Origin: Flavobacteriales bacterium
GTDB lineage: Bacteria; Bacteroidota; Bacteroidia; Flavobacteriales_D; Crocinitomicaceae
DNA length: 43,130 nt
Direction: 5' to 3'
NCBI GenBank assembly: GCA_009926125.1
Contig: RFPM01000005.1
Location: forward strand, 1 to 43,130
A model generated the notes under the pieces. The model made no database searches and was not told the DNA's origin. It saw nothing but the letters and a program-made list of their open reading frames with translations. Shown here in pieces: positions 1-37,745 of this stretch. How positions within the stretch are numbered: the first letter of the stretch is position 1; every line of letters begins with the position of its first letter. A program made the position numbers and the translations under genes.

Positions 1-3000
1 ACGAAACTTCTGTACAGCGTAAAAATGAAGCGTTAAAAAGATTGCAAGTTGTTGAAGCAATGAAAGATTCTCAAAAGAGAATTGATAATAGACCAGAATG
101 GATGATTGTAAAGGTCGTTCCGGTTATTCCACCAGAATTAAGACCTTTAGTTCCTCTAGATGGTGGACGTTTTGCAACTTCAGATTTAAATGATTTATAC
201 CGTCGAGTTATTATTCGTAACAATCGTTTGAAGCGTTTGATAGAAATTAAAGCGCCTGAGGTTATTTTGCGAAATGAGAAACGAATGTTACAGGAATCTG
301 TAGATTCATTGTTTGACAATTCTCGTAAGTCAAGTGCTGTAAAAACAGAATCTAACCGTCCTTTAAAATCTCTTTCTGATTCCTTGAAAGGAAAACAAGG
401 TCGATTCCGTCAAAATTTATTGGGTAAACGTGTTGATTATTCTGCTCGTTCTGTAATTGTTGTTGGACCAGATTTGAAATTACACGAGTGTGGTTTACCA
501 AAAGATATGGCTGCGGAACTCTACAAGCCGTTTATCATTCGTAAAATGATTGAACGTGGTATTGTGAAAACAGTTAAATCAGCGAAAAAAATTGTAGATA
601 AAAAAGATCCAGTTGTTTGGGATATTTTGGAGAATGTATTGAAAGGACATCCTGTTCTCTTAAACCGTGCACCAACTTTACACAGATTGGGAATCCAAGC
701 TTTTCAACCGAAATTAATTGAAGGAAAAGCAATTCGTTTACATCCATTAGTTACAACAGCATTCAATGCCGATTTTGATGGTGACCAGATGGCGGTTCAC
801 TTACCTTTGGGTAATGCTGCAATCTTGGAAGCACAAATGTTGATGCTTGCATCTCATAATATTCTAAATCCTGCAAACGGTGCTCCAATTGCTGTGCCTT
901 CTCAAGACATGGTTTTGGGATTGTACTATATTACTAAGGGAAAAAGATCTTTTGAAAAGGAAATCGTAAAAGGTGAAGACAGTATTTTTTACTCTCCACA
1001 AGAGGTAATAATCGCTTATAATGAAGCAAAATTAGATTTGCATGCTTACTTAAAGGTGAAATCATATGACCTAAATGCAGCAGGAGAACCTGAATTAATG
1101 TTAATTGAGACGACTTGCGGACGTGTTATGTTTAATGAGAAAGTTCCAAGAGAAGTTGGATACATCAATGATGTACTTACGAAAAAAGCATTGCGAGATA
1201 TTATTGGAGAAGTATTGAAAATTTGTGGGACTTCCCGAACTGCTCAATTCTTAGATGATATCAAAGGTTTGGGTTATGAAATGGCTTTTAGAGGTGGTTT
1301 GTCTTTCAACTTGGATGACATTATTATCCCTAAGGAAAAAGAAAAATTAGTTGAAAAAGCACATGGTGATGTGAAAGATGTTATGGGTAATTATAACATG
1401 GGTCTTATTACAAACAATGAGCGTTACAATCAAATTATCGACATTTGGACGCATACAAACTCTCGTTTGACGCATACATTGATGGAGCAATTGAAAACAG
1501 ACCGTCAAGGTTTTAATTCAATCTACATGATGTTTGATTCTGGAGCTCGTGGTTCGAAAGAGCAAATTCGTCAGCTTTCTGGTATGCGTGGATTAATGGC
1601 GAAACCGCAAAAGTCTGGAGCTTCTGTTCAGGAAATCATTGAAAATCCAATTTTATCTAATTTTAAAGAAGGATTATCAATTCTTGAATACTTCATTTCA
1701 ACACACGGTGCGCGAAAAGGTCTTGCAGATACAGCTTTGAAAACAGCGGATGCGGGATACTTAACCCGTCGTTTGGTGGATGTTGCACAAGATGTAGTAA
1801 TTAATATAAATGACTGTGGTACTTTAAGAGGAATTGTCGCTACTTCACTCAAGAAAAATGATGAAATTGTTGAGCCTTTATACGATCGTATTTTAGGTAG
1901 AACTTCTGTACATGATATATATTTGCCGGAATCAGAAACAATCATTGTTGCTGCAGGTGAAATTATATCTGAGGATGTAGCAAAGTCGATTGAAAAGGAA
2001 GGAATTGAAGAAGTTGAAATTCGTTCAGTTCTTACTTGTGAAATGAGACGTGGTGTTTGTTCTAAATGTTATGGAAGAAATCTTTCAAATCACCGTCTAG
2101 CTCAAATTGGAGATGCTGTTGGTGTTGTTGCTGCTCAATCAATTGGTGAGCCAGGAACACAGTTAACATTGCGTACTTTCCACGTGGGTGGTACGGCGTC
2201 AAATACTACGGATATTTCTGATCTAAAAGCGAAAGCAAATGGTAAATTAGAAATAGATGAATTACGAACTATAGAAAAGAAAAATGCTGATGGTTCTGTT
2301 AAATTAATTGTTGTTGGTCGTTCTGCTGAATTGAAGATTTCAGACGAGAAAACAGGAATTACAGTTATGACTACTAATATCCCTTACGGATCAGAATTAT
2401 TTGTGTCGCACAATACGAAAATCAAAAAAGGTGATGTAATTTGTAAGTGGGACCCATACAATGCTGTTATAATTTCTGAGGTTGCAGGTAAAGTTGTTTT
2501 TGACGATGTAGTTGAAAATATTACTTACCGCGAGGAAGTTGATGAGCAAACTGGATTTACAGAAAAAGTAATCATAGAAACAAGAGATAAAAAGAAGAGT
2601 CCAGCTATTCATATTATCGATCCTAAAACAAAAGAAATTTTACGCGAATATTCAATTCCTGTAAACGCACACATTTCTGTAGCTGAGGGTGATAAGTTGG
2701 AAGCAGGAGAGATTCTTGTGAAAATACCAAGATTGTCAGGTAAAACAGGAGATATCACTGGTGGACTTCCTCGTGTAACGGAATTATTCGAAGCTCGAAA
2801 TCCTTCTAACCCTGCTGTTGTTTCAGAAATTGATGGTACCGCTACTTTTGGAAATATCAAGAGAGGTAACAGAGAAATTAAAATCACTTCGAAATTTGGA
2901 GAGGTTAAAAATTACTTGGTTCCATTGGCAAAACATATTCTAGTTCAACAAAATGACTTCGTTAGAGCTGGTCAACCCCTTTCTGATGGTGCAATTACAC

Positions 3001-3629
3001 CAAATGATATTTTAAATATTGAAGGCCCAACGAAAGTACAAGAGTACATCGTGAATGAAATTCAAGAGGTTTATCGTTTGCAAGGTGTAAAGATTAATGA
3101 TAAACACTTTGAAGTTATCGTTCGTCAGATGATGTTGAAAGCTGAAATTAGCGAATCAGGAGATACGCGTTTCCTTGAAGGACAATCTGTTCATAAAGCA
3201 GATATTATGGAGGCAAACGATGCATTGTATGGTTTGATGTTTGTAAAAGAAATTGGAGATTCTACGGAATTTAAAAAAGGGCAATTAGTGACAGTTCGAA
3301 AATTGAGAGACGAGAATTCTCGCTTAAAAAGAGAAGACAAACAAATCGTTGAAGCGCGCGAGGCAATTCCTGCAACTTCTACTTCCTTGCTTCAAGGAAT
3401 TACGAGAGCTTCACTTCAAACTCAATCGTTCATTTCTGCGGCATCTTTCCAAGAGACTACAAAAGTGTTAAACGAAGCAGCTATCGCAGGAAAAGTAGAT
3501 CATTTATTAGGTCTAAAAGAAAATGTGATCGTTGGACATTTAATTCCTGCGGGAACAGGTGTTCGTGAATATCAAAAAATGATTGTAGGTTCTCAAGAAG
3601 CTTACGATGAACTTTTAGAACAAGTTTAA
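1..3629 (+). CDS. rpoC: DNA-directed RNA polymerase subunit beta' (5' partial)
   Basis: This is the largest catalytic subunit of RNA polymerase. The reading frame is open from base 3, so the gene begins upstream of the window; about 1,208 codons are visible out of roughly 1,400 expected in Bacteroidota. The absolutely conserved Mg-binding NADFDGD motif is at 765-785. The Zn-binding cysteines of the family are visible as NDCGTLRG followed by [14 protein letters not shown] (about 1,810-2,070). The bridge-helix/trigger-loop region with [21 protein letters not shown] follows directly (about 2,130-2,200). The C-terminus is intact and ends with TAA at 3627-3629, followed by an intrinsic terminator, which makes this the end of the presumed rpoBC operon. 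No frameshift or other oddity is seen. Identification is certain; only the N-terminus is missing. Confidence 0.98.
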
Positions 3630-24290: not shown

Positions 24291-26972
24291 ATGAAAGCAT
24301 TATTGAAAAACCTTTTACCACATTTTATTGCTGTTGTTATTTTTATTGGTTTAGCTTCTGCTTACTTTTCTCCACTTTACAGCGATTATTCTTTAAAGCA
24401 AAATGATGTAAAGCAATTTCAAGGAATGGCAAAGGAAATTGTGGATTGCCGTTTGCAAAATGATATTGATCCACTTTGGACAAATTCCATGTTTGGTGGA
24501 ATGCCGGCCTATCAAATTTCTGTTGAACACTCTTCAAATTTCTTGATTATAGTAGATTCTATTCTCAAGTTAGGATTGCCTCGACCAATTGGAATTTTAT
24601 TTATGGCGATGTTAGGTTTTTATATTTTTGCGCTTTGCATGAGAATAAATCCCTGGCTCGGAATATTAGGTGCTATTGCCTTTGGATTTTCAACAATTAA
24701 TATCTTGTACTTAGCTGGTGGACATATGACAAAAGTCAATGCCATTGTTTATATGGCTCCTGCACTTGGAGGAATGCTCTTGGCTTTTCGTGGGAAGTGG
24801 CTATTAGGAAGTATCATTTTTGCCTTGTTTTTCGGCTTGAATTTAACGGCAAATCATCTTCAGATGACCTATTATTTGGTGTTCCTATTAACTGCAGTAG
24901 CAATAGGAGAAGGTATCCGATTGCTTATACAAAAAGAATTTATTTCGTTGGGAAAAGTTATTGCAGCTTTGTCTATAGGAACAATTCTAGCTGTTTTACC
25001 ATCTGCAAGCAACCTTATGACAACTTTGGAATACAGCAAGCATACAACACGTGGTGCAACAGATTTGACAATTAAACCAAAAACTCCTGGTAATTCTCAA
25101 GCGCAAGAAGGTTTGAATAAAAATTATATTTTAGAATACAACTTTGGACCCGGAGAGTTCCTTTCAATCTTGTCGCCAAATGCTAAAGGAGAAAAAGGTG
25201 ATTATCTTGGAAATGATGAAGTTGCTATGGAAAATGTAGACAGCCAGTATTCTGAACAAATTGCTCAGATGAATCGCTATTGGGGTGGTCAGTCGAGTAG
25301 TGGTGGTGCTTTTTATTTTGGTGCATTGATGCTCACATTTTTTGTTTTAGGTTTGATTTTAATAAAGGACAATTTGAAGTGGTCATTTTTAGCAATGAGT
25401 ATTTTGGCGATTTTATTGGCATCGAATGATCCCGGAGGAATTAATGATTTTTTCATAAATAAATTCCCTCTTTACAATAAATTTAGAGATTCAAAGATGA
25501 TTTTATCTTTGCTTCAAGTGATGATTCCAGCTTTGGGAATACTTTTTCTAGATCGTCTATTTAAGAAAAGTGAACTGATTGAAAACAAGAAAGTTTACCT
25601 ATATGTTACTGGTGGTGTCGTATTCAGTGTGATCTTACTCTATGTTTTCCCTTCGCTTTCAGGTTCGTTTATTTTAGCAGAAGAAGTGAAAATGTTTGCG
25701 CAAGAAGCTGGAAAATCACAAGATCCTGCTCAAGTTACTTTTTTGAATGGTTTAAAACAAGCTTTAATTGACACAAGAATTTCGCTTTATAAAAGTGATC
25801 TCGCGCGTTCAATCTTTTTGGTTATTCTGGCTTGTGGAATTGTTTTGGCAGCTGTTTATGCCAAAGTGTCAAATAAAATATTGCTTGGTATTGCAATTGC
25901 ACTTGTTGCTTTTGATAAAAATCCTGTGCAAGTTGCAGATTTCTCAATTTTGGAGAATGAAAAGTCTACAATTCCAAATTTTAATGAGAAAGTAAATTCT
26001 TTGGAAACTAAAATGCTTCCCTCTATTCACTATAAAAATATAGCTATTGAAAATATAAAATCATTAGCGGCTTTTGGCGTGTTAAATTTGAATACCAATT
26101 TCCGTGTTCTATCGTTTTCAAATCCATTTGCCGAGACCAATACAAGTTATTTTCATAAAAGTATTGGCGGTTATCATGGTGCTAAGTTAAAACGTTATCA
26201 GGAGCTTGTTGATTTTTACATCAATGATGAAATGATGAAAGTTCGCCAAGAATTTATCAATAAAGAGATTGTAAAGCGCCCTGAAATTATGGCGCAGTAT
26301 AAGGAATCAAAAGATCCGCAAGCTCAAATGCAAATTATTGAGGGATTTTTCCAAGCAACAAATTTTGATTCTGTAGTCTTACAAAAGAATTTTACGCCAG
26401 TTTTGAATATGTTAAATACAAAGTATTTCATTTCTGGAAAAGGGGTTAAGGCAACTTCCAATCCAAATGCAAATGGAGCAGCTTGGTTTGTATCTGCTGT
26501 AAAACAAGTTAATAATAGCAATGAAGAAATGAAAGCTTTGGGAAAAAATAACCTCAGTAATACTGCAATTGTAAACAAGGAATTCTCAAAGTATTTAGCT
26601 CCTCTCAATAAATTTGATTCAACAGCAACAATTTCTCTAAGTAAATACGGTGTGAATGAATTGGCATATACTTCAAATTCTACAATCCCGATGAATGCAG
26701 TTTTTAGTGAAATATATTATTCAGACGGTTGGAATTGTTACATTGATGGTAAGAAAACAGATAAGATTTTTAGAGCGAATTACATTCTGCGAGGCGCTAT
26801 GATTCCAGCAGGAAAACATAGTATTACTTGGAAATTTGAACCTGTTTCATTTAAAAAAGCGAGCGGTTATTCTATGATTGGATCGCTGCTTTTGCTTTTA
26901 TCTTTGGGATTAGTAGTTGGAAAAGAATATCGTTCTAGAATTGCTTCTAAAAATGCTACAAGCGAGAAATAA
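24291..26972 (+). CDS. YfhO-family large multispanning membrane protein
   Basis: An 893-residue inner-membrane protein with many hydrophobic helices in two blocks (about 10-250 and 340-540), a large outside domain (about 550-850), and one C-terminal helix (about 855-875). The start resembles Bacteroidota YfhO proteins: YFSPLYSDYSLKQNDVKQFQGMAKE, then DPLWTNSMFGGMPAYQIS; near the end YSDGWNCYIDGKKT and GAMIPAGKHSITWKFEP. YfhO relatives are GT-C-type proteins needed for glycosylation of wall or surface polymers in Firmicutes; in Bacteroidota the function is open. Its 3' end overlaps that of the convergent glycosyltransferase gene by 17 bases. Its place beside glycan genes fits an envelope role. 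Confidence 0.9.
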   Translation: MKALLKNLLPHFIAVVIFIGLASAYFSPLYSDYSLKQNDVKQFQGMAKEIVDCRLQNDIDPLWTNSMFGGMPAYQISVEHSSNFLIIVDSILKLGLPRPIGILFMAMLGFYIFALCMRINPWLGILGAIAFGFSTINILYLAGGHMTKVNAIVYMAPALGGMLLAFRGKWLLGSIIFALFFGLNLTANHLQMTYYLVFLLTAVAIGEGIRLLIQKEFISLGKVIAALSIGTILAVLPSASNLMTTLEYSKHTTRGATDLTIKPKTPGNSQAQEGLNKNYILEYNFGPGEFLSILSPNAKGEKGDYLGNDEVAMENVDSQYSEQIAQMNRYWGGQSSSGGAFYFGALMLTFFVLGLILIKDNLKWSFLAMSILAILLASNDPGGINDFFINKFPLYNKFRDSKMILSLLQVMIPALGILFLDRLFKKSELIENKKVYLYVTGGVVFSVILLYVFPSLSGSFILAEEVKMFAQEAGKSQDPAQVTFLNGLKQALIDTRISLYKSDLARSIFLVILACGIVLAAVYAKVSNKILLGIAIALVAFDKNPVQVADFSILENEKSTIPNFNEKVNSLETKMLPSIHYKNIAIENIKSLAAFGVLNLNTNFRVLSFSNPFAETNTSYFHKSIGGYHGAKLKRYQELVDFYINDEMMKVRQEFINKEIVKRPEIMAQYKESKDPQAQMQIIEGFFQATNFDSVVLQKNFTPVLNMLNTKYFISGKGVKATSNPNANGAAWFVSAVKQVNNSNEEMKALGKNNLSNTAIVNKEFSKYLAPLNKFDSTATISLSKYGVNELAYTSNSTIPMNAVFSEIYYSDGWNCYIDGKKTDKIFRANYILRGAMIPAGKHSITWKFEPVSFKKASGYSMIGSLLLLLSLGLVVGKEYRSRIASKNATSEK

Positions 26973-30040: not shown

Positions 30041-30048
30041 TATCTTTG
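30041..30048 (+). promoter_or_regulatory. Candidate -7 box for the flippase gene
   Basis: TATCTTTG matches TAnnTTTG, 12 bases before the ATG at 30061. An in-frame TTG inside the box (30046) is thus not a likely start. Confidence 0.5.
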
Positions 30049-30060
30049 TTCAAATCAATT

Positions 30061-31560
30061 ATGGGAATAGTTCAAAAAGATTCTTTGCGCACAATGCTCA
30101 TTTCCTATTTGGGATTGTTTCTCGGATATGTTAACAAGGCTTTTTTATTCTTGTTGATTTTATCAACTGAACAAATTGGTGTCGTAAACCTTATTTTTTC
30201 CCTGGGAATTTTATTTGCTCAACTTTCAAATTTTGGAATGGTCTATTCTGTTTGGAAATTCTTCCCATTTTTTAATAACAAGGAAATAAAGCACCACGGA
30301 TTTTTGCCTTTTAGTATTTCCATAGTATTAATTGGAGTAATTCTTATGACTTTTATTGCTTTGTGGTTTCGCTCTGATATTGAATCCATTTATCTTGAAA
30401 AATCTCAGCTCTTTACGAACTATTATTTTTGGTTAATCCCACTTGGAATTGCCTATGTTTTTTACTTGGTTTTAGAGGTTTATTTGAGAAGTCTTTTGAA
30501 GAACATAGTTTCTGTTTTCGCAATGGAGCTCGTCTTAAGATTAGCAGTTACCAGTATTCTTTTCTTGCTGTGGTTTAAATGCATCACTTTTGACGATTTT
30601 GTCGTTCTACACAGCTTGGTTTATTTTATTCCTGTCATTATTTTACTTGTTTACATGTATCGTATAGATGAATTGCATTTGGGACTTTCTAATTTTAATA
30701 TTTCCAAGAAATTCCGCAAGATAATTTTCCAGTTTTCGGCTTTTAATTATATAAATACCTTGGGAAGTACTTTGGTTATTTCACTGGATGTAATAATGAT
30801 TGCTTCCTATTTAGGACTTCAAGCAACAGGTGTTTATACCACCGTTGTTTTTTTAACAAGCGCCCTGCAAGTTCCTTATAAAGCAATTGTAAGAATTAGT
30901 TCTCCGCTAATTGCTGATCATTGGAAAAAACGCGAAATGGAGAAAATGAAAGAATTATACACTCAAGTTAGTTCTGTAGCATTGGTTATTGGTTTAGGTT
31001 CTTTTCTTTTAATTTGGTCCAATATTGACTTCTTATTTTCTTTTTTAAAGCCCGAATTTAAAGCGGGAATTTGGGTGTTTTTCTTCCTAATGATAGGGCG
31101 ATTGACGGACATGTATTTTGGCTTGAATGGTGCAATATTCACCACATCAAAGAAGTATAAATACGACATGATTTTCACCCTGTTTTTAATTGGAACGGTT
31201 TATGGGTTAAACCTACTTTTTATTCCAGCTTATGGTATTTCTGGCGCTGCAATTTCAACTTCAATTGCTTTAGTTTGCTACAATTTAGGCCGTCTGCTAT
31301 TTGTGTATAAGGTGTATAAAATCCATCCATTTACAAAAGGTCAATTTGTAATTATAGCACTTGGCTTACTAACCTTTTTCTTGTGTCATTATCTCCAAAA
31401 TATATTTCAAGATTTATGGATTCAAATGCTTTTTATGTCAAGTTTCGTAGCCATACTATTTTTTGGCAGTATCTATTTCTTTAAGCTAGAAAAAGAAACC
31501 GTAAATTATGTGAATAATTCTATGGATTTTCTGATCAAAAAAATCAGAAGAAAAAATTAA
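30061..31560 (+). CDS. Wzx-like polysaccharide flippase (MOP superfamily)
   Basis: A 499-residue membrane protein from ATG 30061 (MGIVQKDSLRTMLISYLG...). It has about 14 hydrophobic helices through the whole length and the typical RfbX/Wzx start, in which a short cytoplasmic leader is followed by YLGLFLGYVNKAFLF and STEQIGVVNLIFSLG. It would flip lipid-linked oligosaccharides across the inner membrane, working with the divergent glycosyltransferase/methyltransferase operon. Its stop codon TAA (31558-31560) lies inside the alaS-like repeat copy that begins at 31557, so the junction with the rearranged region is exactly at its end. Confidence 0.9.
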   Translation: MGIVQKDSLRTMLISYLGLFLGYVNKAFLFLLILSTEQIGVVNLIFSLGILFAQLSNFGMVYSVWKFFPFFNNKEIKHHGFLPFSISIVLIGVILMTFIALWFRSDIESIYLEKSQLFTNYYFWLIPLGIAYVFYLVLEVYLRSLLKNIVSVFAMELVLRLAVTSILFLLWFKCITFDDFVVLHSLVYFIPVIILLVYMYRIDELHLGLSNFNISKKFRKIIFQFSAFNYINTLGSTLVISLDVIMIASYLGLQATGVYTTVVFLTSALQVPYKAIVRISSPLIADHWKKREMEKMKELYTQVSSVALVIGLGSFLLIWSNIDFLFSFLKPEFKAGIWVFFFLMIGRLTDMYFGLNGAIFTTSKKYKYDMIFTLFLIGTVYGLNLLFIPAYGISGAAISTSIALVCYNLGRLLFVYKVYKIHPFTKGQFVIIALGLLTFFLCHYLQNIFQDLWIQMLFMSSFVAILFFGSIYFFKLEKETVNYVNNSMDFLIKKIRRKN

Positions 31561-31658
31561 AAAAGGGATTTTATTTCTTGAATGGCAGCTGCCAAACCTT
31601 CCTTCCGTTTCCCTCCAGAAGTTGCAAAAAATGCTTGTCCGCCGCCTCCGCCTTCAAT
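31557..31658. repeat. Direct repeat copy A: relic of an alaS 3' end
   Basis: These 102 bases match 34741-34842, the true alaS 3' end, at 94 of 102 positions by my count. Read on the minus strand, they encode IEGGGGGQAFFATSGGKRK and then EGLAAAIQEIKSLF and stop. Of the codon changes relative to copy B only one alters the protein (Val to Ala), so this copy was part of a selected alaS gene until its upstream portion was lost. Homology stops abruptly at about 31659. Confidence 0.88.
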
Positions 31659-31659
31659 T
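31557..31659 (-). pseudogene. 3'-terminal alaS fragment
   Basis: The minus strand encodes the last 33 residues of alanyl-tRNA synthetase and a stop codon, with nothing of the remaining gene. It has no start and cannot be functional. Overlaps the last codon of the flippase gene. Confidence 0.85.
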
Positions 31660-31726
31660 CTTTTATCGAATTTATACTTTCTTATTCTTTAAGTTTCTAT
31701 ATTTACTAAGAATTAAAAAAAGTAAA

Positions 31727-32251
31727 ATGGGAAAAAGCATATCAAAACGTATAACACTGATCGTAATGGGGCTATTATTTACAGTTGGGCTTCGAGCTCA
31801 AAGTATTTATTTCAATTACACCAATGGCACAAATGCTTCCTATAATTTGGAAGACGTGCGAAAAATCACATTTGATGCAGACATTATGAATCTCCATTTT
31901 TGGGATAGCAGCGTTTATGCTTGGAATGTGAGCACAATTGGCTATTACCAATATGATGCATCCTTAAATGTGCATGAGTGGCTGAATATCGCGAATGCTT
32001 GGGATGTCTCTATTTATCCCAATCCATCGGATGGAAATCAAAGCATAAAACTTAAACTTCCTCAAGCAACAGAATTATCATTTTCAATAATTGATATTTC
32101 AGGGAAGCAAATCTATCAACAAAAACTTGGGGAATTATCAAAAGGAGAGTATACTTTTCCAATAGATTGGAGTAATGCTTCAGCGGGATCTTATACTATT
32201 ATTTTAAAATCAAACGATTTCTCTGTTACCAAGAAACTCATTAAAAAATAA
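31727..32251 (+). CDS. Secreted protein with T9SS type A C-terminal sorting domain
   Basis: A 174-residue protein from ATG 31727, which gives a clean Sec signal peptide (about 1-25, TVGLRAQS). A longer open frame upstream runs back into the alaS relic and is rejected. A short middle part contains NGTNASYNLEDVRKITFD, a motif type (x-L-x-x-I/V-x-x-I-T-F) also seen twice in the next gene. Residues about 93-174 form a T9SS sorting domain: WDVSIYPNPSDGNQ, FSIIDISGKQIYQQ, GSYTIILKS, KKLIKK. The protein is mostly signal plus sorting domain, unusually small for cargo. It would be exported by the T9SS, which PorX in this window is known to regulate in relatives. Confidence 0.85.
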   Translation: MGKSISKRITLIVMGLLFTVGLRAQSIYFNYTNGTNASYNLEDVRKITFDADIMNLHFWDSSVYAWNVSTIGYYQYDASLNVHEWLNIANAWDVSIYPNPSDGNQSIKLKLPQATELSFSIIDISGKQIYQQKLGELSKGEYTFPIDWSNASAGSYTIILKSNDFSVTKKLIKK

Positions 32252-32256
32252 GAACT

Positions 32257-34596
32257 ATGCTGTTTTTTAGATACCTCCTTTTTTTTATTTGTGCTTTTAC
32301 TTTGAATTGCACACAAGCTCAAAATTTAATGAATATTCACCAAGGGAATGGAACACTTATTCAAATACCTTTAGAGTCTATAGATAGTGTGCGTTTTGTA
32401 ACTCTTCCTCCTCCAACTATTCAAAAGATATTTCAAAGCAATGGCAATATTTTGAGCATAGCAGTTAACGACATTGATAGTATAACATATACCCTTCCTA
32501 ACATTGCCGCTCTCGCATCTTTAACTACTCAGCCAGTTACCGTTCTTTCTTCATCGTCGGCTTATTCTGGAGGCACTATTTCAAGTGATGGAGGTTCTGC
32601 AATTTTACAACGAGGTGTTTGTTGGAGCACATCCCCCAATCCAACACTCTCAAATAACTTTTCAGTTGACGGAACTGGCATAGGTTCATTTGGTAGTAAT
32701 GTAGTACCATTGCAATCAGCTACGGTCTATTATTTAAGAGCATATGCGATAAATTCAGAAGGAACTGCTTATGGTAATCAGTTATCTTTTACAACTCTGA
32801 ACCCTTCAACAAGTGGCTCATTAGCAACAATAACAACGTCAACTGTTTTAAATACAGTAGGACTAACGGCTTCTTGTGGAGGTAACATTACAGCAGATGG
32901 AGGACTTGCGGTTACAGCTCGCGGCGTATGTTGGGCTATAGGCACAACGCCAACAATTAACAATAATATTACTTCTAATGGTGCAGGAGGAGGCAGTTTT
33001 ACAAGCACATTAACAAACCTACTTCCTAATACAAGTTATTTTGTTCGAGCATATGCAACAAACGATGCTGGAACAGCATATGGAATTACATATAGCTTGA
33101 CAACATTTACTCTTCCAACAGTGCTAACAAATTCAATTATCAGTATAACAGGACTTACTGCAATATCTGGCGGCAATATTACTTCTGATGGTGGAGCAGC
33201 AGTTACCCAACGTGGCGTTTGTTGGAGCACTAGCCCTAACCCGACGATTACAAACAACACAACAAGCAATGGAAGCGGCATAGGCAACTTTACTAGTAAT
33301 ATGATAGGTCTTTCCCCATCAACTACATATTATGTTCGAGCATATGCGATTAATATTGTAGGTGTTTCTTATGGTAATGAACTTACTTTTTCAACTATTG
33401 CTCAATTGGCTTCAATTTCTACAAATTCAATTACAGCCATTTCTATAAATACTGCCATATCTGGCGGCAATATTACTTCTGATGGTGGAGCAGCAGTTAC
33501 CCAACGTGGCGTTTGTTGGAGTATTAACCCTAACCCAACAATAGCAAACAACCCAACAAGCAATGGAAGCGGCATAGGCAACTTTACTAGTAATATGATA
33601 GGGCTTTCTCCATTAATAACCTACTATGTTCGAGCATATGCGATTAATATCGTAGGTGTATCTTATGGAAATGAAGTTAATTTTACAACTATTGCTCTAT
33701 TGGCTTCAGTTTCTACAAATTCAATTACATCTATAACTACAAATACTGCCATATCTGGAGGCAATATTACTTCTGATGGTGGAGCAGCAGTTACCCAACT
33801 TGGGGTTTGTTGGAGTACCAGCCCTAACCCGTCGATATCAAGCAATACAACAAGCAATGGTATCGGTACGGGCAACTTTACTAGTAATATGACAGGGCTT
33901 TCTCCATCAACAACCTATTATATTCGAGCATATGCGATTAATATTGTAGGTGTTTCTTATGGTAATGAAGTTTCTTTCACAACAGAAGATATTGTTACCA
34001 ATCCTGGTGCTGGTGTTTCATTTGATGGTTATAATTATTCTAGTATTGTCTTAGGAAACGGACAAGAATGGATGAATGAAAACCTGCGAACCACTAATTA
34101 TGCAAATGGTGACCCTATCCCGAATATAACGAATAATACCCAATGGCAAACCCTAACTACAGGGGCTTGGACTCATTACAACAACAATAGCCAAAATGAA
34201 ATTCCTTATGGTAAGCTCTACAATTGGTATGCTGCCTCTGACTCAAGAAATGTATGCCCAATAGGATGGCATGTGCCTAGTAACGATGAATGGATATTAT
34301 TAGTAGACTATTTAGGTGGGTTAACAGTTGCAGGTGGTAAAATGAAAAGTACAGGTACGCAATACTGGATAAGTCCTAATCAAGATGCCACCAACGAAAG
34401 TGGTTTCTCAGCTCTGCCAGGCGGTATTTATACCAATAATTTTTACTCTATTGGAGTAGATGGTTGTTGGTGGGCGTCTACGGAAGTCCCCACTGACTCG
34501 GCTTGGTTGAAATTTATTGGTGCCTCAGGTGGGACTCTTGCCGAAGGACCAAATTTTAAGTGGTTTGGTACGTCTGTTCGTTGTCTTAAGGATTAG
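32257..34596 (+). CDS. Secreted FISUMP-domain protein with five fibronectin-like repeats
   Basis: A 779-residue protein with a Sec signal peptide (about 1-21, ending TQAQ). Two copies of a short motif follow (HQGNGTLIQIPLESIDSVRF and FQSNGNILSIAVNDIDSITY, about 28-79). Residues about 84-580 are five tandem repeats of about 98 residues, each with SGGNITSDGGAAVTQRGVCW, LSPSTTYYVRAYAIN and a final FTT; repeats 3 to 5 are nearly identical. The C-terminus (about 586-779) is a FISUMP domain, with GQEWMNENLRTTNYANG, YGKLYNWYAA, CPIGWHVPSNDEW and final SVRCLKD. No T9SS sorting domain is present. It is five bases behind the sorting-domain gene. A role in adhesion or surface binding is a guess from the architecture. 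Confidence 0.9.
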   Translation: MLFFRYLLFFICAFTLNCTQAQNLMNIHQGNGTLIQIPLESIDSVRFVTLPPPTIQKIFQSNGNILSIAVNDIDSITYTLPNIAALASLTTQPVTVLSSSSAYSGGTISSDGGSAILQRGVCWSTSPNPTLSNNFSVDGTGIGSFGSNVVPLQSATVYYLRAYAINSEGTAYGNQLSFTTLNPSTSGSLATITTSTVLNTVGLTASCGGNITADGGLAVTARGVCWAIGTTPTINNNITSNGAGGGSFTSTLTNLLPNTSYFVRAYATNDAGTAYGITYSLTTFTLPTVLTNSIISITGLTAISGGNITSDGGAAVTQRGVCWSTSPNPTITNNTTSNGSGIGNFTSNMIGLSPSTTYYVRAYAINIVGVSYGNELTFSTIAQLASISTNSITAISINTAISGGNITSDGGAAVTQRGVCWSINPNPTIANNPTSNGSGIGNFTSNMIGLSPLITYYVRAYAINIVGVSYGNEVNFTTIALLASVSTNSITSITTNTAISGGNITSDGGAAVTQLGVCWSTSPNPSISSNTTSNGIGTGNFTSNMTGLSPSTTYYIRAYAINIVGVSYGNEVSFTTEDIVTNPGAGVSFDGYNYSSIVLGNGQEWMNENLRTTNYANGDPIPNITNNTQWQTLTTGAWTHYNNNSQNEIPYGKLYNWYAASDSRNVCPIGWHVPSNDEWILLVDYLGGLTVAGGKMKSTGTQYWISPNQDATNESGFSALPGGIYTNNFYSIGVDGCWWASTEVPTDSAWLKFIGASGGTLAEGPNFKWFGTSVRCLKD
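32506..33986 (+). repeat. Five tandem repeats of about 294 bp inside the FISUMP gene
   Basis: The Ser/Cys-Gly-Gly codon of each unit starts at 32566, 32875, 33166, 33460 and 33754, so spacings are 309, 291, 294 and 294 bases. Units 3 to 5 share long identical stretches of DNA (for example around GATGGTGGAGCAGCAGTTACC), showing recent duplication or gene conversion; units 1 and 2 have diverged. Confidence 0.92.
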
Positions 34597-34740
34597 AAAT
34601 TATTCGATTTATTTGATAATTTTCCGAGGAGCAGTCGATTTTTTTTAGATTAAGTACTGCGCCAAACTTTTTGAGCTTTTAGGTGCGAAGAAAAAATACC
34701 GAAAGTAAAATTTAACCAGTTATCAATTAAGCTGAGAAAA

Positions 34741-34842
34741 TTAAAAAAGGGATTTTATTTCTTGAATAGCGGCTACCAAACCTTCCTTTCTTTTTCCTCC
34801 TGAAGTTGCAAAAAATGCTTGTCCGCCCCCTCCGCCTTCAAT
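34741..34842. repeat. Direct repeat copy B: 3' end of alaS
   Basis: The last 102 bases of the intact-looking alaS frame, matching copy A at 31557-31658. The two copies lie 3,184 bases apart in the same orientation and bracket the two secreted-protein genes. The stretch 34597-34740 between the FISUMP gene and this copy has no recognisable feature. Confidence 0.88.
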
Positions 34843-37170
34843 ATGTTTTGAAACTTGACGAATTATTTGCGAGGCATTTAAATTTTTCTCAGCCACTAAA
34901 TTATCAGAAACAATTAGACTCAAGAAACACTTATCACCTTCCGAGTTTCCAATCACGCCAATAAAATTTGGATTTTCTTCTTTCAATTGAAATAAAATAT
35001 CTTTTATCGAATGCATCTTCAAATCAAGAATTTCTCCAAGAAAATGAATTCCATTAATTGCGGTAATTTTTGTTTTGAGTTCAAGTTTGATGTTTTTTGC
35101 ATTCTCTCTCTGCTGCACTTCGATCTCCTTCGTTAATTGTTGATTCTTTTTAAGAAGTTCGTCAATTAATTTCAGTACATCAGGTGGATTTTTTAAAAGA
35201 GAACTAATAGCATCAAATTTCTCTGTTTTTTCTTTGAAATACTTTTCAGCACTTGGTCCTGTGATAGCTTCTATTCTTCTTATCCCGGCGGCAACTGCGG
35301 CTTCTGAGGTGATTTTGAAAAGACCAATTTTTCCAGTTGCTGTCACATGTATTCCACCACATAATTCAACGGAATCACCGAATTTAATAACGCGAACAGA
35401 ATCTCCGTATTTTTCTCCAAACAATGCCATTGCACCCATTGCTTTTGCTTCATCAATCGGAACTGCACGGCGTTCTTCCAAGGAAATATTTTGGTGAATA
35501 GCGTTTGTTATCATCCTTTCAATCTGCTCTATTTCTTCATCTGTCACTTTAGCAAAATGTGAAAAGTCGAAACGCAAATAAGAAGGATTAACAAGCGAGC
35601 CTTTTTGCTCAACATGCTCACCAAGTACTTTTCGCAATGCGTGATGCAGTAAATGCGTTGCCGAATGATTTTCTGCACTTAATTGGCGTTTTTCGACATC
35701 TATTTCAGCAGTAAAGTTCCCACTTAAATCGCCAGGAATTTTTTCACTTAGATGGATGATTAAATTATTTTCTTTTTTCGTGTCAAAAATTACGATGCTC
35801 GCTGTTTCATTTCGCAGAATTCCCTTATCGCCAACTTGTCCGCCACCTTCAGGATAAAAAGGTGTTTGATTTAAAACGAGTTGGTAAAATTCTTTTTGCT
35901 TTTGAGAAACTTTACGATACTTGATAATTTGGACTTCAGCACTTGTGTGGTCATAACCAATAAATTTGCTTGTTTCATCGGGATTTACTTGTACCCAATC
36001 ATCTGTTTCTACAGCTGTTGCAGCGCGTGATCTGTCTTTTTGAATTTGTAGTTCGCTGTTAAAACCTTGTTCGTCTATGCTTAAGCCATTTTCTCGTGCA
36101 ATTAAAGAAGTTAAATCAACAGGAAAACCATAGGTGTCATACAATTCAAAAACTGAATTTCCAGCAATTACGGTGATGTTTTGTGACTTGCATTCGTGCA
36201 TTAGCAAATCCATTCTTCGAATTCCTAGCTCTAGTGTTCTGAAAAAACTATTTTCTTCCTCGCGAATAACTTTAGAAATTAAATCCTGTTGCTTAATCAA
36301 TTCGCTGTAAGGATCTCCCATTAATTTACATAATACGAGCGATAAGTCACTCAAAAAAGATTCTTTTAATCCCAATGTTTGGTAGCCGTAACGGACCGCT
36401 CTGCGTAAAATTCTTCGGATTACGTAACCAGCACCATTATTTGCTGGAATTTGGCCATCAGCTATTGAAAAAGCAATCGTTCGAATGTGATCAGCAATAA
36501 CACGCAAGGCAATGTCTGTTTCTTCCGATTTTCCATAGGAAATCCCAGAGACCTTAACCATGTGTTGAATCAATGTTTGAAATAAATCAGTATCGTAGTT
36601 GGATTGCTTTCCTTGAAGAGCCATCGCTAAGCGCTCCAAGCCCATGCCAGTATCAACGTGCGTAGCAGGAAGATTTTCCAAGGAGCTATCAGCTTTTCGA
36701 TTGAATTGCATGAAAACATTGTTCCAAATTTCAATCACTTGTGGATGGTCATTGTTTGGAACATTGTCTGAGGCATCTCCTTCGAAAACGGTAACGTAAA
36801 GATTTTCCTTAGGAATTTTATATACTTCCGTTAATAATTCCCAGGCCCAAGAAATCGCATCTTCTTTGAAATAATCTCCAAAAGACCAATTTCCCAACAT
36901 TTCAAACATCGTATGATGATAGGTGTCAACCCCAACTTCTTCTAAGTCATTGTGCTTTCCAGAGACGCGCAAACATTTTTGTGAATTAGCAACACGTTTA
37001 TCACTTGGAACCTGATATCCGAGGAAAAAATCTTTAAATTGATTCATTCCTGCATTGGTAAACATTAAGGTTGGATCATTTTTCACAACCATGGGCGCTG
37101 AAGGAACAATTTTATGTCCTTTACTTTCAAAAAAATCAAAAAATTGCTGCCTTATTTCAGAAACGGTCAT
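34741..37170 (-). CDS. alaS: Alanyl-tRNA synthetase with an internal deletion in the aminoacylation domain
   Basis: AlaRS charges tRNA-Ala. The frame has 809 residues, about 65 fewer than the usual 870-880. The start (MTVSEIRQQFFDFFESKGH), motif 2 region (HHTMFEMLGNWSFGDYFK, 85-102), motif 3 (HVDTGMGLERLA, 171-182), tRNA-binding part (GAGYVIRRILRRAVRYG), editing domain zinc site (HSATHLLH ... CGGIHVTATG) and C-terminal GGGGGQ are all present. Between YVTVFEGDASDNVPN and NDHPQVIEIWN (residues 131-141) the segment carrying NFWxMGxTGPCGPCxEI, which includes the tryptophan that helps bind alanine and ATP, is missing. As read, aminoacylation should be lost while editing could persist. Either this is a real deletion with another alaS elsewhere, or it is an assembly error. 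Confidence 0.93.
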   Translation of the reverse strand: MTVSEIRQQFFDFFESKGHKIVPSAPMVVKNDPTLMFTNAGMNQFKDFFLGYQVPSDKRVANSQKCLRVSGKHNDLEEVGVDTYHHTMFEMLGNWSFGDYFKEDAISWAWELLTEVYKIPKENLYVTVFEGDASDNVPNNDHPQVIEIWNNVFMQFNRKADSSLENLPATHVDTGMGLERLAMALQGKQSNYDTDLFQTLIQHMVKVSGISYGKSEETDIALRVIADHIRTIAFSIADGQIPANNGAGYVIRRILRRAVRYGYQTLGLKESFLSDLSLVLCKLMGDPYSELIKQQDLISKVIREEENSFFRTLELGIRRMDLLMHECKSQNITVIAGNSVFELYDTYGFPVDLTSLIARENGLSIDEQGFNSELQIQKDRSRAATAVETDDWVQVNPDETSKFIGYDHTSAEVQIIKYRKVSQKQKEFYQLVLNQTPFYPEGGGQVGDKGILRNETASIVIFDTKKENNLIIHLSEKIPGDLSGNFTAEIDVEKRQLSAENHSATHLLHHALRKVLGEHVEQKGSLVNPSYLRFDFSHFAKVTDEEIEQIERMITNAIHQNISLEERRAVPIDEAKAMGAMALFGEKYGDSVRVIKFGDSVELCGGIHVTATGKIGLFKITSEAAVAAGIRRIEAITGPSAEKYFKEKTEKFDAISSLLKNPPDVLKLIDELLKKNQQLTKEIEVQQRENAKNIKLELKTKITAINGIHFLGEILDLKMHSIKDILFQLKEENPNFIGVIGNSEGDKCFLSLIVSDNLVAEKNLNASQIIRQVSKHIEGGGGGQAFFATSGGKRKEGLVAAIQEIKSLF

Positions 37171-37197: not shown

Positions 37198-37395
37198 TGA
37201 AAAGCTACGCACTTGGCGATAAATTTATCAGTTTTTAGATAACTCATTCATAAATTAAAAATTATTAATAAAAAAGATTTGTTAGATTACGATGTAGCTC
37301 TTTATATGGAATAGAAACCAAACGTGTTACTGAAGCTGTAAAGAATAATCCTGAAAAATTTCCTGAAGGATATGTGATCTATTTAGTTATAATTA

Positions 37396-37559
37396 GCGAA
37401 CACTATTCGGCCTTGAATTTCATGGTTTTTGCTACTGAACTGAAACTAATAATTTTTAAAATTTCTGCAAGAACATTTTTGAAAAAATTCAGTTTCAGAA
37501 AGGAGTTAAAATTGTTCGCGACGAGTTGTAAATAGTTGTAAAATTATGATTTGCGAACA
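37396..37559. repeat. Repeat-rich insert inside the ORF6N relic
   Basis: GCGAACA at 37396-37402 recurs at 37553-37559, and its reverse complement is at 37513-37519. Within it lies an 8-bp perfect inverted repeat, CTGAAACT (37440-37447) and AGTTTCAG (37491-37498). This looks like a small non-coding insertion element; I see no gene and no clear target duplication. Confidence 0.4.
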
Positions 37560-37576
37560 AAATAGAAATTCAGAGC

Positions 37577-37617
37577 CTTGACTTTTTTGTTTCTTTTTTT
37601 GTCAAGAAAAAAAGAAA
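37577..37617. repeat. Two overlapping alternative hairpins
   Basis: TTTCTTTTTTT (37590-37600) pairs perfectly with AAAAAAAGAAA (37607-37617) around the loop GTCAAG. The same GTCAAG (37601-37606) could instead pair with CTTGAC (37577-37582). The two folds exclude each other. The sequence resembles CTTGAC-GTCAAG elements I have seen repeated in Bacteroidota genomes. Confidence 0.5.
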
Positions 37618-37745
37618 GGAAAATAGAATAATTTCTCAAATTGAGATTGTTATTCTCGTTACGAATTTGATTAGGATTTGATTGCTGATAAGAAATTGTA
37701 CACTAAAATAAAAATTAATAGAACCATGTTAGTAGAAATTGGAGC

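Follow-up and report, generated by a model that had tools for sequence, protein, structure and literature searches.

An in-frame gap of 61 codons in alaS of a draft Crocinitomicaceae genome is very probably an assembly artefact

Bacterial alanine--tRNA ligases (AlaRS; TIGR00344) contain catalytic, editing (tRNA_SAD) and DHHA1 C-terminal domains. Their complete catalytic core includes an NFWxMG...GPCGPC segment, the Trp of which takes part in alanine and ATP binding. AlaX proteins, including the AlaXM family (NF040865), are free-standing editing proteins; they possess a homologous editing domain and no aminoacylation domain. A third point of comparison is provided by local errors in metagenome-assembled genomes. 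PMC7111523 describes wrong local sequence at unsupported places, as well as incomplete or incorrect genes obtained from uncurated metagenomic drafts.

The window examined here (the whole analysed stretch of 43,130 nt) is contig C92 of draft genome G000, which comprises 1,508,750 bases in 157 contigs and is 81% complete. It contains a single alaS gene, with the following features:

34741..37170, minus strand: alaS, alanine--tRNA ligase, identified by a match to TIGR00344; 809 aa as assembled, 870 aa in the two nearest intact relatives.
36757..36758, minus strand: very probably false join in alaS; 183 nt (61 codons) absent relative to genomes G047 and G088.

The reading frame of this gene is intact over 809 codons, and the protein sequence across the join runs from ...YVTVFEGDASDNVPN directly to NDHPQVIEIWN.... 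The whole protein is recognised as AlaRS in the profile search, with a TIGR00344 score of 814.1 bits (cut-off, 457.05), and the three domains occur in the usual order. Unlike other bacterial AlaRS, the protein as assembled has a catalytic core that is 61 residues short and therefore incomplete in the NFWxMG...GPCGPC segment. In view of the losses found elsewhere in G000, this incompleteness would be due to the assembly. In comparisons with Pfam, NCBIfam and PDB sequences the protein is matched in two pieces, which part at about residues 133–144, and the alignment with Aquifex AlaRS (1riq) is interrupted between residues 137 and 189 of that chain. The remainder of the protein is present, as the earlier note on this DNA had stated, with the editing and C-terminal parts found intact by profile matches. 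The editing domain (residues 424–634) matches AlaXM with 94.3 bits, whereas the cut-off for this family is 300; also, the window protein differs from AlaX in keeping most of the aminoacylation domain.

The nearest genomes found to the window alaS were G047 (locus L115; 94.3% DNA identity over 34624–36757) and G088 (locus L116; 92.7% over 34737–36757), each encoding an AlaRS of 870 residues. The closest named relatives of the gene are metagenomic genomes assigned to Flavobacteriia, Crocinitomicaceae and Flavobacteriales. DNA alignment to G047 and G088 places the join between 36757 and 36758, with exactly 183 nt absent, and protein alignment to L115 gives a gap of exactly 61 residues. The in-frame catalytic gap that had been reported for the 809-residue protein is thus confirmed, while its size, given earlier as about 65 residues, is corrected to 61.

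These 61 residues are present at the gap position in all 25 relatives included in a codon alignment. A larger set held 107 alaS loci of relatives, some of them representing one contig fetched twice; L006 and L032, cut by contig ends, were dropped. The motifs flanking the gap are 83–84 residues apart in 82 of these loci versus 22 residues in the window alaS. The spacing pattern failed in the remaining 25, of which 24 carry the strict NFW and GPCGPC motif and one (L083) a variant motif, so that the segment is recognisable in 107 of 107 loci. Accordingly, the short form whose occurrence in close relatives had been considered earlier was seen in neither set.

A comparison of G000 with G088 revealed that the gap in alaS is one of several. 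On the G000 side, 40 stretches and the window were used (553,645 bases, 14,391 of them N); on the G088 side, 40 stretches (783,876 bases). The aligned part, made up of matches that reach 150 bp and 85% identity, amounts to 191,704 bases with a mean identity of 94.3%. Net gains or losses of 50–600 bp with clean edges were recorded as events. Larger insertions, divergent stretches and a 69-bp tandem-duplication difference, with the extra copy in G088 and outside this rule, were left out of the count. All ten events recorded were missing from G000 and none from G088, which corresponds to about one join per 19 kb of compared sequence; at a uniform rate, the whole draft would contain about 80. The lost pieces measure 87, 114, 130, 132, 151, 157, 161, 180, 183 and 195 bp (mean 149, SD 34). 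Six of them are divisible by three, while four break the frame. Microhomology at the ten joins amounts to 0, 0, 3, 3, 0, 0, 0, 0, 1 and 0 bp, values that leave repeat-mediated deletion unsupported. The other nine genes affected are:

pgk, loss in G000 at C70:53058: frame lost, 397 to 117 aa (named by Pfam).
hisS, loss in G000 at C3:11749: frame lost beyond about residue 327 of 424 (Pfam).
rel/spoT, loss in G000: frame lost, 744 to 654 aa (Pfam).
Lipoprotein-like gene, loss in G000: frame lost, 276 to 187 aa (presumptive name).
rpsA, loss in G000 at C3:8295: 604 to 544 aa (presumptive name).
cox3, loss in G000: 342 to 303 aa (Pfam).
corA, loss in G000: 336 to 271 aa (Pfam).
HPPD-like gene, loss in G000: 386 to 342 aa (presumptive name).
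24291..26972: large membrane-protein-like gene with a join at 25919..25927 (plus strand); net 87 nt missing relative to G088 and G047.

The names rpsA, HPPD-like, lipoprotein-like and large membrane-protein-like, assigned from the sequence, are presumptive. Five gene pairs (pgk, hisS, rel/spoT, cox3 and corA) were scanned against Pfam, and in each the domain matches were shortened or split in G000. The searches of G000 covered contigs of at least 3 kb; shorter ones, where a fragment of a second copy may lie, read as N (8 of 8 stretches fetched). In this searchable part, the sole matches to pgk and hisS were the two neighbouring pieces of each broken gene, and no intact second copy of either was found. 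Pieces of G047 cover two of the ten places, namely alaS and the membrane-protein gene of the window, and the loss is seen relative to G047 at both. The other eight are based on G088 alone together with knowledge of the gene families. The control comparison of G047 with G088 is small: it gave no events in 28,704 aligned bases, for which the rate seen in G000 would itself predict about 1.5. Alignment around the breakpoint in corA is poor, with 19 mismatches out of 120, and this event may be less simple than the others.

The occurrence of kindred one-sided events elsewhere in G000, including those in essential genes, makes us highly confident that the 183-nt gap in alaS is an assembly artefact and not biology, as judged from sequence comparison. 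Losses that are one-sided, similar in size, nearly free of homology and both in and out of frame fit direct joining across gaps. We infer that G000 is a metagenomic draft and that its joins were caused by joining across the unsequenced middles of paired-end inserts or across unfilled scaffold gaps. Short stretches of the genome would have remained without read coverage, and their flanks would have been joined directly without Ns, with about 90–200 bp dropped each time. One such join would have landed in alaS, the frame being kept by chance; what sets alaS apart is chiefly that 183 can be divided by three. Against an artefact, the share of losses in frame (6 of 10) is above the one-third expected by chance, although this is not significant at n = 10; the excess could be a hint that real deletions were under selection. 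The G000 diagnosis differs from the cases described in PMC7111523 in that it rests on sister-genome comparison. The absence of ribosomal protein genes from metagenomic drafts, treated in PMC9723686, carries no weight in the argument here.

Among the alternatives, a real and very recent in-frame deletion survives best, yet we consider it very improbable. It would have left an editing-only AlaRS, with tRNA-Ala charged by a second, intact alaS that was not assembled and with the catalytic domain as yet undecayed. The preserved frame and the intact editing and C-terminal parts agree with such a deletion, and a second copy could be missing from a draft that is 81% complete. The searchable part of this draft (contigs of at least 3 kb), however, yielded no second alaS, and the segment is kept in every relative of the codon alignment. 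Also, pgk, hisS and rpsA in G000 suffer losses of the same kind. A cell without working pgk, hisS, rpsA and alaS together would not be viable. Since one cell could hardly bear all the losses seen in G000, the biological reading fails.

Additional alaS copies appear to be uncommon in the genus, judging by the numbers of matching pieces, and this too speaks against a real deletion. More than two alaS-like pieces were obtained in 6 of 86 genomes: four each in G040 and G054, and three each in G004, G052, G085 and G097. Among the places listed, a clear second copy was present in G040 (5% contamination), and overlapping pieces in G054 and G004. Eight of the 86 genomes gave no alaS match; these include G019, which is listed as 100% complete and gave no PF01411 match either. 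Short contigs absent from the search may explain the missing matches in G019 and the others.

Signs of relaxed selection were not seen in the catalytic part of alaS. Derived codons were counted per lineage, with G088 as the outgroup. Within residues 1–380, those of the window lineage are synonymous in 28 cases and nonsynonymous in 1, and its sister G047 has 17 and 1, respectively; for the linker and editing part, the window lineage has 13 and 4. The ratio of 28 to 1 indicates that the catalytic part was not drifting and speaks against relaxed selection on it. This part was probably constrained for nearly all the time since the split of G000 and G047, and in having a constrained aminoacylation domain the protein again does not conform to AlaX. 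The earlier proposals that, were the gap real, a second alaS must exist and this copy may be an editing factor in the making thus find no support in the searchable part of the genome and the codon counts. Relocation of the missing segment was rejected as well: a 251-bp probe from G047 matched only both flanks at the join in searchable G000.

The remaining two explanations are less probable still. Metagenomic drafts are composites of populations, and the consensus chosen by the assembler might represent a minority lineage or strain whose alaS is truly defective; this would, however, need defective variants of one size class at ten places in 192 kb, and we give it hardly any credence. Equally implausible is a repeat-mediated assembly collapse, in which a direct repeat bounding the lost segment at either end was merged. 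In its favour are AACAATGA-like letters near the join, reported in the earlier note, but the join shows 0 bp of homology versus G088, the best join position versus L115 is unique, and ACAATG is found to the left as well as to the right of the join in the window, which disfavours a collapse since repeat-mediated loss leaves one copy. Deletion in the cell through a short direct repeat, as put forward in the earlier note, was rejected on the same homology and join position and because the nearby repeats do not flank the lost segment. As to the assembly error that the note held in reserve, the fault itself is borne out by nine more kindred losses in G000, but its attribution to a collapsed repeat is not.

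The preferred reading, an artefact of direct joining, concerns the catalytic part of alaS; several further observations were made at its 3' end and beside it. The last about 100 nt of the gene and 16 nt past its stop codon (34725–34842) are repeated at 31541–31658 with 89% identity over 118 nt. The two copies are separated by 3 kb, and this insertion holds ORFs 31622–32251 and 32257–34596, the products of which resemble secreted or surface proteins. The second ORF contains three tandem 294-nt units at 33156–34037; identity to the first unit is 90% and 78% for the other two. G088 represents the empty site, with the gene at 30046–31560 running straight up to alaS: positions 1–1599 of L116 match window positions 30060–31658, and positions 1494–3514 match 34737–36757. 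One edge of the insertion is independently supported, because G047 shares 34624–34740 just downstream of alaS, where its contig ends. This duplication around the 3-kb insertion looks like a real but modest feature.

On the other side of alaS, a segment of about 340 bp (37380–37719) appears to interrupt a small ORF and has an 83% copy on contig C2 of G088. Stretches of contigs C130 and C72 of G000 match the place of this segment on C2 at 83–85%; for this reason it resembles a mobile element or a short repeat dispersed in these genomes. In the AlaRS alignment, L116 is 93–100% identical to L117 and L119 in the first six 60-column windows and 52–67% identical in the last three, where L117 and L119 share 97–98% identity with each other. 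One reading of this C-terminal divergence is recombinational exchange of the 3' end of the gene. Another is fast evolution, since the C-terminus is also the least similar part when more distant pairs are compared.

Most likely, the organism's own AlaRS is a normal enzyme of about 870 residues. An in-frame loss of catalytic residues in a draft should be compared with the rest of that draft before any biology is built on it, and other gene truncations in G000 should not be trusted unchecked.
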